Shown here in pieces: positions 3,877 through 39,275 of a stretch of 46,136 nucleotides of DNA (positions are counted from its first letter, which is position 1; every line of letters starts with the position of its first letter). The notes under the pieces were generated by a model, which worked only from the letters and a program-made list of their open reading frames with translations, did no database searches and was not told the origin of the DNA. Both the position numbers and the translations under genes were made by a program. Source of the DNA: an uncultured Flavobacteriales bacterium (GTDB lineage Bacteria > Bacteroidota > Bacteroidia > Flavobacteriales_D > Parvicellaceae); assembly GCA_913042175.1 (NCBI GenBank), contig CAJWIX010000007.1:1-46136 (forward strand), read 5' to 3'.

Positions 3877-4422
3877 ATCAGACCAAGAAGACCAAACAGA
3901 GGGAGAGTCATTAAGGAAGACCCCCACAGAATAAATGAAAAAATTAGAGTTCCTGAAGTTAGGGTTGTAGGGGAAGGAATAGCTCAAGGAGTTTACCCAA
4001 CGCACAAAGCATTAGTGATGGCTAGTGACATGGAACTTGATTTAGTGGAAATATCACCAAATGCTAAACCGCCTGTTTGCAAAATTATTGATTATAAAAA
4101 GTTTCTTTACGAGCAAAAGAAAAAACAAAAAGAGCTGAAAGCAAAGCAAACTAAAGTAGTCATTAAAGAAATTAGATTTGGTCCGAATACTGATGAACAC
4201 GATTTTCAGTTTAAATTAAAGCATGCCGTTAAATTCCTTAAAGAAGGAGCAAAATTAAAGGCATTTGTATTTTTTAAAGGAAGAACCATAATTTACAAAG
4301 ATCGTGGTGAGATATTACTTCTGAAATTCGCTCAAGAATTAGAAGAGTTTGGAATTTTAGAAAAGATGCCAGAATTACAAGGGAAAAAGATGACAATTAT
4401 CATCAACCCTAAAAAGAAATAA
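3877..4422 (+). CDS. infC: Translation initiation factor IF-3, non-canonical ATC start
   Basis: IF-3 binds the 30S subunit and rejects wrong start codons and initiator tRNAs. The first ATG in frame (4015) would remove about 46 residues that are clearly IF-3, including [21 protein letters not shown], which matches the conserved basic tail plus INxxI(R) opening of the N-domain. The frame is open back to the TAA at 3862-3864, and no ATG, GTG or TTG gives a full-length protein. ATC at 3877 gives 181 residues, the usual family size; ATT at 3910 is the next candidate. IF-3 genes in many bacteria use AUU or similar codons for autoregulation, so the choice is expected for the family. C-domain motifs [10 protein letters not shown] and KAFVFFKGR are present. 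Confidence 0.9.
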
Positions 4423-18640: not shown

Positions 18641-19657
18641 ATTAACACAGCCGTTGTCATATTAAACTATAATGGAGAAAATTGGTTAAAAAAATTCCTA
18701 CCTATTTTTTTAGAACACTCCATTAATGAAGCTGAAGTAGTTGTAATTGACAATGGTTCATCAGATAATTCTGTTAATTACATTTCATCTAACCACAACG
18801 AAGTAAAGATTATTCAGATTGAAAACAATTTAGGTTTTGCTGGAGGATACAATGAGGGGCTAAAACAACTTAAAAATGACTATTTTATTATTGTAAATTC
18901 AGATATTCAAGTTACGCCAAACTGGATTACTCCTATGACAAGAATATTGTCAAAAAACGAAAATGTAGTTGCGGTACAGCCAAAAATTCTTAGCTACAAT
19001 AAAAAACAAGAATTTGAATATGCTGGAGCTGCTGGAGGATTTATTGATAAACATGGTTATCCTTTTTGCAGAGGTAGAATTTTAAACTTCGTTGAGCAAG
19101 ACCTTGGTCAATACAATACATGTCATGAAATATTTTGGGCATCAGGAGCATGTATGGCTGTTAAATCAAATGAATTTTTCAAAGTTGGTGGTTTTGATGC
19201 AGATTTTTTCGCTCATATGGAAGAAATTGACCTTTGCTGGAGATGGAAAAATGCGGGAAAATCCATTATGTATACCAATGAATCTAAAATTTACCATGTT
19301 GGTGGTGGAACTTTATCCTATGAAAGCCCTCGTAAAACATTTTTAAACTATAGAAATAACCTATGGATGATTCATAAAAATTACGCTGGTAAAAGTCCAC
19401 TATTTATGAAAATTTTCATCCGGCTACTGCTTGACCAATTGTCATTTTACAGGCTAATAATTCTAGGACAGTTTAGAAATGCAATCAGTATTTTTAAAGC
19501 ACACCTTAATTATTACTCTTCATTAAAAACACTACACCAAAAAAGAAAGAAAATTAAAAAAACAACATTTAGTCGAATGAAGGGATACTTTAAAAAATCT
19601 ATTGTTTGGGAATTTTTCATTTTACAAAATCGTACTTTTAAAAAACTTCAGTTTTAA
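18641..19657 (+). CDS. Family 2 glycosyltransferase with probable ATT start
   Basis: The frame encodes the complete GT2 N-terminus (TAVVILNYNGENWLKKFL, VVVIDNGSSDNS, NLGFAGGYNEGL, FIIVNSD), all upstream of the first ATG at 18935. The frame opens at 18617 after a TAA at 18614, and no ATG, GTG or TTG precedes the conserved strand. ATT at 18641, two bases after the GWxTD stop, gives 338 residues and the typical opening (M)NTAVVILNYNG; ATT at 18620 is an alternative. NSD is the metal-binding motif, and HMEEIDLCWRWKNAGK the acceptor-side ED motif typical of rhamnosyltransferase-like GT2 enzymes. The substrate is unknown. Its stop overlaps the next ATG by one base. Confidence 0.85.
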   Translation: MNTAVVILNYNGENWLKKFLPIFLEHSINEAEVVVIDNGSSDNSVNYISSNHNEVKIIQIENNLGFAGGYNEGLKQLKNDYFIIVNSDIQVTPNWITPMTRILSKNENVVAVQPKILSYNKKQEFEYAGAAGGFIDKHGYPFCRGRILNFVEQDLGQYNTCHEIFWASGACMAVKSNEFFKVGGFDADFFAHMEEIDLCWRWKNAGKSIMYTNESKIYHVGGGTLSYESPRKTFLNYRNNLWMIHKNYAGKSPLFMKIFIRLLLDQLSFYRLIILGQFRNAISIFKAHLNYYSSLKTLHQKRKKIKKTTFSRMKGYFKKSIVWEFFILQNRTFKKLQF

Positions 19658-20370
19658 TGAAAATTTTCACCCTTTTAAGTTTTATCACTTTTACATGTTT
19701 TGTAAACAACCAAATTCATGGTCAATTCGACTTTGATAAGCAACTTAAAAAAGTAGAACACAACAGCGATATAATTGACCCTATATATGGGATAACTATT
19801 TATGAACCTTTAAATCTATATCTACACTCAGACTCAACAAGAATGGAAGAAGGATATGCTGTAAATGGATGGAAAGAAGACCATTATTCTACAGGTGAAT
19901 TATTACATAAAGGATACTACATTGAAGGTCAACTTAAAGTGTATAAAAACTTTTACCCTAATGGTAATGTAGAACGCAACTTTAAAGCCATAGACAGTTT
20001 TAAATCGAAATTGACTTTATTCTTTCCTAATGGTAATATTAAAAGCAAGATTAGCTATTCCAATGACTTTGCTATGGAATGGACAGATTACAATACGAAT
20101 GGAAATGTATCTTTTTATGAGAAATACAATAAGGATAAAATGTCACATGATAGTAAAGTGTTCTATTATGAATCCGGAAACATCAGAGATGAGCTTACCA
20201 TTGATCATAAAAAGAAGAAAACCTACATCTATACAGAATATTATGAAAATGGCAACATTAAATTAAAGGGCCATTTGAAATTTGATATGGGTATTTATGA
20301 TTATGTTAAATATGGAACATGGCACCACTATGATGAAGATGGCACCAATCATAAAAAAGACCACTATTAG
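19657..20370 (+). CDS. Secreted YwqK/MORN-like repeat protein
   Basis: A 237-residue protein with a signal peptide (about 1-22, FVNNQIHGQ). The body carries about five repeats of the form (F/Y)(F/Y)xxGN(I/V)xxx: FYPNGNVER, FFPNGNIKS, YNTNGNVSF, YYESGNIRD and YYENGNIKL. These are the short beta-hairpin repeats of the MORN-variant/YwqK family, which in Bacteroidota are exported proteins of unknown role. It overlaps the GT2 stop by one base (TAATG) and converges on hutH with a 4-base overlap. Confidence 0.85.
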   Translation: MKIFTLLSFITFTCFVNNQIHGQFDFDKQLKKVEHNSDIIDPIYGITIYEPLNLYLHSDSTRMEEGYAVNGWKEDHYSTGELLHKGYYIEGQLKVYKNFYPNGNVERNFKAIDSFKSKLTLFFPNGNIKSKISYSNDFAMEWTDYNTNGNVSFYEKYNKDKMSHDSKVFYYESGNIRDELTIDHKKKKTYIYTEYYENGNIKLKGHLKFDMGIYDYVKYGTWHHYDEDGTNHKKDHY

Positions 20371-37047: not shown

Positions 37048-38130
37048 CTAAGCTTTAGCTCCCATTAACTTCAAATGAGTTGCATGGTGTTTTAGAGCTT
37101 GGAAAAAAGATTGATTAGCATGGTATGGCAAACCATATTCATGAGCGGTAGCCTTAACTATCTTAGATAGATCATAATAATGCACATGGCATATATTGGG
37201 GAATAGATGATGTTCTATTTGGTAATTTAATCCTCCAATGAACCAAGAGAAAAAACTCTTTCTATTACTAAAATTAGCCGTAGTTTCCATCTGATGAACA
37301 TACCAATTCTTCTCGATATTACCTTCTTGATTAGGCAGTGGAAAATCAGCTTGGTCAACAATGTGTGCACACAAAAACACAGTAGTTAAGAATAGACCAG
37401 CAATAAAATGCATTAAGAAAAATCCACCTATAGTTATACCTATTTTACCATTAAATAAAATAGGTAAGCCAAAGATATAAGTCATATATAGAACTTTCCA
37501 AAATGTCAAGTTTAGAATAGCTGATTTCAAAGAATGACCCTGGGTTTCAATGAGATTTTTTTTATGGTATTTAACTACCTGAATATAATCCTTAGTAAAA
37601 ATCCATGAAATAGTCATTAGCCCATACAAAAACCAAGCATAAAGGTGTTGGTATCCATGATGGAATTTTCTTTTTTGTGATGAAGAAAACCTTAAAACTA
37701 TACCTGCATCCACATCTTCATCCATGCCTATGATATTGGTGTAGGTATGATGTAGTACATTATGCTGTATTCTCCAATTTAAATCAAACCCACCAACAAT
37801 ATTTAAACAATAACCTAACCACTTATTGACTTTAGGATTTTTAGAATAAGCTCCATGATTGGCATCATGCATTACAGATAAGCCAATTCCAGCCATACCA
37901 AAACCCATTAGTGACCACATAATAATGTGAAACCACCAAGAGTCAACAACATTTATAGTCAATAAAATAAATGGAACAAAAAACAATGACAGCATAAATA
38001 CAGTCTTAAAGTGCATGGAAAAATTGCTGTTTTTTGATTTGTTATTTTCTTTGAAATAAGTATTAACTCTTTTTCTAAGAACTTTTACAAATTCAGGTTT
38101 GCTTGTTTCAAACTGTACTGATTTATTCAT
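37048..38130 (-). CDS. Membrane fatty acid desaturase, paralog A
   Basis: A 360-residue integral membrane di-iron desaturase of the acyl-lipid/linoleoyl-CoA (front-end-like) group. The three His boxes are HDANHGAYS (H88 and H92), HNVLHHTY (H123, H127, H128) and QIEHHLFP (about 305-312); the Gln in the last box marks the delta-5/6-type branch. Hydrophobic segments lie at about 43-60, 65-85 and 215-255. There is no cytochrome b5 domain, so the electron donor is separate. It lies 15 bases after its close paralog and is probably co-transcribed. Confidence 0.93.
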   Translation of the reverse strand: MNKSVQFETSKPEFVKVLRKRVNTYFKENNKSKNSNFSMHFKTVFMLSLFFVPFILLTINVVDSWWFHIIMWSLMGFGMAGIGLSVMHDANHGAYSKNPKVNKWLGYCLNIVGGFDLNWRIQHNVLHHTYTNIIGMDEDVDAGIVLRFSSSQKRKFHHGYQHLYAWFLYGLMTISWIFTKDYIQVVKYHKKNLIETQGHSLKSAILNLTFWKVLYMTYIFGLPILFNGKIGITIGGFFLMHFIAGLFLTTVFLCAHIVDQADFPLPNQEGNIEKNWYVHQMETTANFSNRKSFFSWFIGGLNYQIEHHLFPNICHVHYYDLSKIVKATAHEYGLPYHANQSFFQALKHHATHLKLMGAKA

Positions 38131-38145
38131 GCTTGATATAAAGAG

Positions 38146-39231
38146 TTAATTAGCAATTCCTAATTTTTTGAGTTGTCTTGTGTGACAACTTAAGGCATCA
38201 AAAAAAGTTCTGAATGAATGGTATGGTAAACCAAATTCTTCCGCAGTTTTTTTAACAATAGGACTTATTTTTTTGTAGTGGACATGACAAATATTAGGAA
38301 ATAAATGATGTTCAACCTGAAAGTTCAGACCTCCAACGAACCAAGAAAACAATCTAGAATTTGAGGCAAAATTAGAAGTGGTATGTAATTGATGAGCAAA
38401 CCAGTTATGCTCCATGTTACCTCCATCTTTTGGTTTAGGATAATCGGCATTTTCAACAACATGAGCACACTGAAAAACTATAGCTAGAACAAAACCAGCT
38501 ATGAAATGCATAACAAAGAAACCAACTAGAGCCATCCACCAAGACGGTGACACAATAATGGGTAAAACCAACATGTATCCGTAGTAAAACAACTTAGAAC
38601 ATATTAAAAAAGAAAAAGATTTTGAGAAATCAATTTTATGAATCTTCAACAACCCTTTTCTTTTGTAACGGAATAATTGTTGGAAATCTTTATCTAACGC
38701 CCAAGAAATGGTCATAAAACCATATAAAAACCATGCATAAATATGTTGAAACCTGTGAAATTTTTTTCTTTTTTGATCTGGAGAAAATCTCATTAGAGGA
38801 TCAAGATCAATGTCTTCATCCATACCTGAAATATTCGTGTAAGAATGATGAAGCACATTATGCTGGAGTTTCCAATTTGTGGCACTTCCACCAATAAAAT
38901 GGATTAGATAGCCCATGATGAGATTAACTGTCTTAGACTTTGAATAAGAACCGTGATTGGCATCGTGCATGACACTCATCCCAATGCCTGCCATTCCAAA
39001 GCCCATCACCATCCAAATTAATAGATAGGTGAAGAAATTAAAGTTAACAATGTATAACAAGGCATATGGTAGAAAAAACATTGACAACATAACAATGCTT
39101 TTTAGTATCATAGATGAATTATTATTTTTTGACAAGTTATTTTCTTTGAAATAACCATTGACTCTCTTTCTTAAAACTTTAACAAATTCTGAAGAAGAGT
39201 TATTAAACTGTATGTGTGAAAATGTAGAAAT
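38146..39231 (-). CDS. Membrane fatty acid desaturase, paralog B, non-canonical start
   Basis: A second desaturase with the same His boxes: HDANHGSYS, HNVLHHSY and QVEHHLFP. A TTG at 39135 would give 329 residues, but the frame continues upstream with QFNNSSSEFVKVLRKRVNGYFKENN, which aligns with QFETSKPEFVKVLRKRVNTYFKENN of paralog A. That segment must be coding. The frame is open only to the TAA at 39235-39237, with no ATG, GTG or TTG upstream of the match, leaving ATT at 39231 (361 residues, near the paralog's 360) or ATA at 39213. I use ATT. Conserved differences outside the His boxes suggest different substrate or double-bond position. Confidence 0.85.
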   Translation of the reverse strand: MSTFSHIQFNNSSSEFVKVLRKRVNGYFKENNLSKNNNSSMILKSIVMLSMFFLPYALLYIVNFNFFTYLLIWMVMGFGMAGIGMSVMHDANHGSYSKSKTVNLIMGYLIHFIGGSATNWKLQHNVLHHSYTNISGMDEDIDLDPLMRFSPDQKRKKFHRFQHIYAWFLYGFMTISWALDKDFQQLFRYKRKGLLKIHKIDFSKSFSFLICSKLFYYGYMLVLPIIVSPSWWMALVGFFVMHFIAGFVLAIVFQCAHVVENADYPKPKDGGNMEHNWFAHQLHTTSNFASNSRLFSWFVGGLNFQVEHHLFPNICHVHYKKISPIVKKTAEEFGLPYHSFRTFFDALSCHTRQLKKLGIAN

Positions 39232-39246
39232 AACTTAAATTTTGGA

Positions 39247-39275
39247 CAATATTAGTCAATAATATAGACCTCCAA
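39247..39275 (-). promoter_or_regulatory. Possible promoter of the desaturase pair
   Basis: On the minus strand TTG (39275-39273), an 18-base spacer and TAATATTG (39254-39247) resemble the Bacteroidota promoter with one -7 mismatch. A start of transcription a few bases downstream leaves about 10 bases before the ATT at 39231. Confidence 0.4.

Follow-up and report, generated by a model that had tools for sequence, protein, structure and literature searches.

Conserved non-canonical start codons have been characterized in few bacterial genes, according to the excerpted text of PMC5472188, which also describes initiation factor IF3 as a repressor of such starts and notes that infC starts with ATT in E. 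coli and with ATC in Streptomyces. The first and second codon bases must pair with the initiator and the third is looser, and in vitro IF3 excludes weak third-base pairs (PMC10158994, excerpt), so that AUC and AUU must be poor starts. In poor medium, S. aureus AUU and AUA reporters reached about 10% of the AUG level, and in rich medium one of them, ccpN, reached up to 30%; extended Shine-Dalgarno (SD) motifs help the non-canonical starts of this species (PMC13009471, excerpt). Bacteroidia ribosomes, for their part, fail to recognize SD sequences (PMC9976891, excerpt). Gene finders assume ATG, GTG or TTG, and genes with other start codons are therefore annotated too short.

Here we describe a desaturase gene, B, whose translation very probably starts at a rare ATT instead of ATG. 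It lies beside a tandem paralog, A, in a 46,136-nucleotide stretch of DNA from an uncultured Flavobacteriales bacterium (contig CAJWIX010000007.1), which is called the window throughout (Table 1). Among the literature matches listed, which consisted of titles and the beginnings of abstracts and so give weak evidence of absence, none dealt with non-AUG bacterial desaturases or with AUU/AUC starts in Bacteroidota.

Table 1. Coordinates of the features discussed, numbered from the first nucleotide of the window
Feature	Position	Strand	Remark
infC (IF3)	3877..4422	+	ATC start; known example of the near-cognate AUN kind
Family-2 glycosyltransferase (PF00535)	18641..19657	+	Starts with ATT, 2 nt past the stop of the preceding ORF; a second, independent case
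Tandem paralog A (PF00487)	37048..38130	-	Orthologous to second genes of the relatives; ATG lies 13 codons ahead of the core
Desaturase gene B (PF00487)	38146..39231	-	From ATT 39231 to the stop codon
TTG, first canonical start codon in the B frame	39133..39135	-	Rejected start, not conserved
5' coding end of B, like group 2 (second genes)	39136..39231	-	Putative conversion tract; borders undefined
Putative start codon ATT	39229..39231	-	Aligns with the ATG column of the closest orthologs
In-frame TAA 5' of the ATT	39235..39237	-	GTT is the sole codon between TAA and ATT
Promoter-like TTG-N18-TAATATTG	39247..39275	-	At chance level

The desaturase frame and its start column

Judged by its profile match, motifs and substitution pattern, B is a working membrane fatty-acid desaturase under purifying selection. 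It matches the Pfam profile PF00487 with an E value of 4.8e-37 (128.5 bits against a cut-off of 29.7), and its translation contains HDANH, HNVLHH and QVEHH, which we take to be the three histidine boxes of membrane desaturases. NCBIfam equivalogs score far below their cut-off (23 versus 500 bits), and a sequence search returned no PDB chain at E 0.001. The contig of the congener G001 spans only the last 184 codons of B, stop included; over these the two genes differ synonymously at 47 codons and nonsynonymously at 2.

The minus-strand frame that contains the ORF 38146-39135 translates as VISTFSHIQFNNSSSEFVKVLRKRVNGYFKENN and stays open up to the TAA at 39237-39235. The first-pass annotation, made from the DNA sequence of the window alone, had held that this frame continues upstream into a match to the N-terminus of paralog A with no usual start codon ahead of it, and both observations stand. 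No ATG, GTG or TTG precedes the conserved N-terminus, and the earliest such codon in the frame, TTG 39135, is itself preceded by a conserved protein stretch. Since paralog A begins with MNKSVQFETSKPEFVKVLRKRVNTYFKENN, the likeness of the upstream B frame to A is real. It also exceeds chance: in 7/7 other contigs with a homolog, the alignment extends at least six residues upstream of the first canonical start of B.

For the start itself, ATT 39231 or ATA 39213 had been proposed, and only the former is strongly supported by the alignments. The ATT sits 15 codons before the FVK core, and all four of the closest orthologs (67-72% identity) carry ATG at this place. In the second genes of the tandem pairs of 14 relatives, the same column holds ATC in 11, ATT in two and ATG in one (G031), the last of which supports the position of the column. 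Across these 19 genes the first two bases, AU, are constant and the third varies, a pattern that on comparative grounds fits the published pairing rules. ATA 39213 was rejected, its column being an internal Ile or Val codon in homologs, ATG-started ones included (one row has N). Initiation at TTG 39135, which the first-pass annotation had named as the competing site, finds no support either: none of the 30 other homologs has TTG in that column, where 29 have an Ile codon and one a Lys codon, and we rejected this start as well. The same holds for a frameshift from another frame, as no ATG-led frame runs past the start column in any of the 14 AUY genes (the few TTG- or GTG-led frames that do are not common to all). 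Taken together, these alignments make ATT 39231 the start with the best support.

According to the first-pass annotation, relatives with ATG would refute the reading by betraying a single-base error in the window. The direct orthologs formally match this description, yet the neighboring paralog of the same four relatives carries ATC or ATT in its column, so an error at ATT 39231 is not required, although it may affect this one base. Set against near-cognate AUN starts of the infC kind, B has no canonical start before its conserved N-terminus, and its AUN codon falls in the start column of AUG-started homologs. The non-canonical codon is conserved as AUY in 13 of 14 second genes, with B itself seen in one genome and its direct orthologs having ATG; within the window's genus, the G001 sequence is cut off before the start of B, and G002 and G003 have no match.

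Tandem pairs and a putative gene conversion

The relatives were sampled from 60 genomes, including the window's own, with 39 genomes making up the family and 80 named contigs. Thirteen of 109 distinct desaturase ORFs (loci L001-L112, first histidine box) lack a canonical start, and all 13 lie in tandem pairs. Both 5' ends are present in 15 pairs, namely those of the window and of 14 relatives (genera g1, g4, g5 and g8), a set that includes two added genomes and also G031, where the 3' part of the second gene is missing. Exactly one member lacks a canonical start in 14 of these 15 pairs. The first gene has ATG in 14/14 relatives and the second gene keeps AUY in 13/14, over three genera; the window reverses this pattern, with ATT in the first gene (B) and ATG in the second (A). 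On the aligned 5' ends, an AUG/AUY split between tandem desaturases is seen in four genera of the family. The counter-example is G031, which has ATG in both genes and no non-canonical member, so that a pair need not contain an AUY copy. Its second desaturase (L010), with ATG where the 13 other second genes have ATC or ATT, is a natural start-codon variant.

Eight further desaturase copies of the family, outside these pairs, served as a control, and seven of them have ATG near the N-terminus. The eighth copy comes from genus g3 (closed genome G005): upstream of codon 50 it shows no canonical start, and ATC stands at the ATG position of an ATG-started relative (L253); non-canonical desaturase starts are therefore not confined to pairs. 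The unlinked G005 desaturase (L256, G005:C1:3858538-3859905, minus) reads ATT ATC at its expected start. The counts exclude disrupted or incomplete copies in G004, G012 and G028, as well as distant paralogs of about 30% identity.

Trees and block comparisons lend modest support to a gene conversion by which B, a first gene, acquired its 5' end, AUY start included, from the second gene. In the full-length tree B groups with the first genes (UFBoot 99, SH-aLRT 96), on a long branch, and A groups with the second genes. In a tree of 120 nt at the 5' end, which is short and noisy, B falls among the second genes (UFBoot 82, SH-aLRT 90.7). The first 30-column block of B scores 0.82 to A, 0.75 to second genes and 0.65 to first genes, and the second block is uninformative (0.28-0.34). 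Over its first 105 nt B has an identity of 0.62-0.77 to the relatives' second genes and of 0.63-0.70 to the g5/g8 first genes, ranges that overlap; over the 30 nt upstream the identities are 0.33-0.57 and 0.27-0.40, respectively. The ATG of A lies 13, not 15, codons before the core, and the 'ATA TCA AGC' that precedes it looks like a remnant of the former start. Constraint is looser in the first 41 codons of the g4 second genes than in the body: 45 non-independent pairs show 467 synonymous and 328 nonsynonymous codon differences.

Other genes without a canonical start

The survey took in 663 gene entries, each with two or more orthologs, on eight syntenic contigs, 42 of these entries in the window, and yielded 72 candidates that were judged by reading. 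Short fragments were set aside, as were cases confined to G014, because the assembly of that genome shows frameshift fragments; in L147-L166 (G014:C1) several genes are broken in this way, which suggests indel errors in the assembly. The families without a canonical start among the 72 candidates were infC (7/7 members), the desaturase (the second genes of 7/7 relatives and B of the window) and a family-2 glycosyltransferase (5/7, with TTG in G007 and ATG in G023), next to single cases in G007 and G006. A second region, with 217 entries that had an ortholog and were printed only if longer than 0.8 of its length, gave no such family by reading; one short ORF there looks antisense. With few families among the 663 entries and none in the second region, we rejected a general loss of start-codon fidelity, and non-canonical starts are therefore rare and gene-specific.

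The glycosyltransferase of the window has 106 codons of open frame ahead of its first canonical codon. Its start column holds ATT in 3/3 genomes of the window's genus and ATA in 8 g4 genomes, and TTG, ATG or GTG stands at or next to the column in 18 of 29 usable loci (of 30, L203 being without the N-terminus). The spacing between the upstream stop and the AUH codon is 2 nt for the window, 3 nt for G027 and G029 and 5 nt for G014. Of 31 infC frames, 30 could be parsed, and in 24 of these no canonical start precedes the core. GGAGG lies just upstream of the ATC of the window's infC, though the class does without SD pairing, and G001 shares ATC with GGAGG, as do g4 genomes such as G006, G029 and G014. 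The infC gene and the desaturase pair share a contig in at least six genomes.

Among the single cases, a signal-peptide-like protein in G007 (L184, G007:C41:35749-36480, minus) has no canonical start in its first 59 codons and perhaps represents another ATT start; its homolog in the window (19657-20370, plus) has ATG. In G006 (L170, G006:C52:69773-70384, minus), a TAG followed by ATT stands where relatives have TTG as their likely start, and L170 may start either at this ATT or at an inner TTG.

Initiation, alternative readings and known systems

Position -1 is U in 11 of the 14 AUY genes, which are related sequences; a U there could pair with A37 of the initiator tRNA, a weak argument here given that relatedness. 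We detected no upstream element or structure in a scan of the 14 AUY genes for SD-like tetramers and in the folding of five starts. GGAG, AGGA and GAGG are absent from -25 to -1 in 14/14 AUY genes, in line with what the excerpt of PMC9976891 says of Bacteroidia ribosomes, and RNA folding around the five starts gave no signal (z -0.07 to 1.16, with the G017 segment starting within the start region). A promoter-like string had earlier led to the proposal of a very short leader for B. TTG-N18-TAATATTG is indeed present at 39275-39247, but TTG-N18-TANNWTTG occurs three times in the window against 3.63 expected from shuffling, so the string carries no weight. The proposed short leader rests on this chance-level match, as would an assignment of B to leaderless mRNAs.

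In the mechanism we propose, the initiator tRNA would read AUU 39231 with a third-base mismatch, and initiation would proceed without an SD sequence, as is general in Bacteroidia. Such initiation should be weak and open to repression by IF3, as for infC, and we infer that production of B would therefore depend on IF3 and be slower than that of A. Lower expression from AUU is plausible by analogy with the S. aureus reporters (PMC13009471, excerpt), and the odd start may keep one desaturase copy low. In the window's genus the AUY start region would have moved from the second to the first gene by conversion, and the second gene would use an ATG two codons further in. We regard this reading as a whole, from a functional B with an AUU start in a family of AUY/AUG pairs to conversion and weak, SD-free, IF3-sensitive initiation, as quite probable.

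A single-base sequencing or assembly error, with ATG as the true codon at 39231, would agree with the ATG of the four closest orthologs and with the single genome of the genus that covers the B start; it is nonetheless very unlikely, as the flanking 5' end is second-gene-like, where ATC and ATT rule, and the glycosyltransferase of the same genome also lacks a canonical start, with ATT in 3/3 congeners. We find it highly improbable that translation starts at TTG 39135 or an internal ATG and that the upstream frame is a relic. Although TTG is the first canonical codon in frame and homologs commonly have an internal Met in front of the membrane core, TTG is missing from its column in 30/30 other homologs, and the AUY genes and their ATG-started sisters alike conserve the protein sequence of the upstream stretch. 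The lack of a canonical start might also be that of a decaying pseudogene whose start has been lost, but this is hardly credible for a gene with a 47:2 ratio of synonymous to nonsynonymous differences against G001 and with frame and histidine boxes intact, and we rejected it.

Termination-reinitiation, whereby ribosomes ending an upstream gene restart at a weak codon, would suit the relatives, in which the AUY desaturase closely follows its sister, and the glycosyltransferase, whose AUH codon lies 2-5 nt after the upstream stop in the window, G027, G029 and G014. We consider it unlikely, since the ORF upstream of B in the window is divergent and no co-directed gene precedes B; reinitiation thus cannot explain how B is initiated, but relatives may use it. 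The main rival concerns function, not the start site. It holds that AUU is used with no regulatory meaning, conversion or drift having left a weak start that is tolerated by AT-rich, non-SD translation. This is a real possibility, somewhat short of an even chance: G031 has ATG in both genes, the glycosyltransferase and the unlinked desaturase copy also have AUH starts, and no upstream element or structure was detected, whereas AUY has been kept in 13/14 second genes of three genera with ATG one substitution away, and 14/15 pairs have exactly one non-canonical copy, even after the gene switch in the window's genus.

If AUU initiation does serve regulation, the AUY region might, tentatively, be seen as a portable SD-free module, kept on one copy and moved by conversion, that ties the dose of one tandem desaturase to IF3 and hence to ribosome state or temperature. 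The locus presents a membrane-lipid enzyme, in a bacterial class whose ribosomes do without SD pairing, with AUC/AUU starts kept over several genera and a start that seemingly moved between paralogs. With AUC, AUU and AUG in one column, it forms a natural series in which start-codon strength and IF3 can be set against membrane composition.

Among bacterial membrane fatty acid desaturases, B shares the PF00487 match and stays far below the cut-offs of the NCBIfam equivalogs. It resembles infC, which in the window itself starts with ATC, in having a near-cognate AUN start, and differs from it in encoding a lipid enzyme, in having no SD-like tetramer upstream where the window's infC has GGAGG, and in that IF3 control of B is putative. 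The S. aureus genes cvfC1 (AUU) and ccpN (AUA) are, like B, conserved non-canonical starts outside infC (PMC13009471, excerpt). They carry extended SD motifs, whereas the 14/14 AUY desaturases have no SD-like tetramer within 25 nt; the extended SD just upstream that marks the S. aureus type is absent from all of them. Streptomyces sigR, with a GTC start repressed by IF3, is a related case in which a non-canonical start sets the ratio of a two-gene operon, and it differs in its codon, in belonging to a sigma/anti-sigma pair and in having been demonstrated by experiment (PMC5472188, excerpt).
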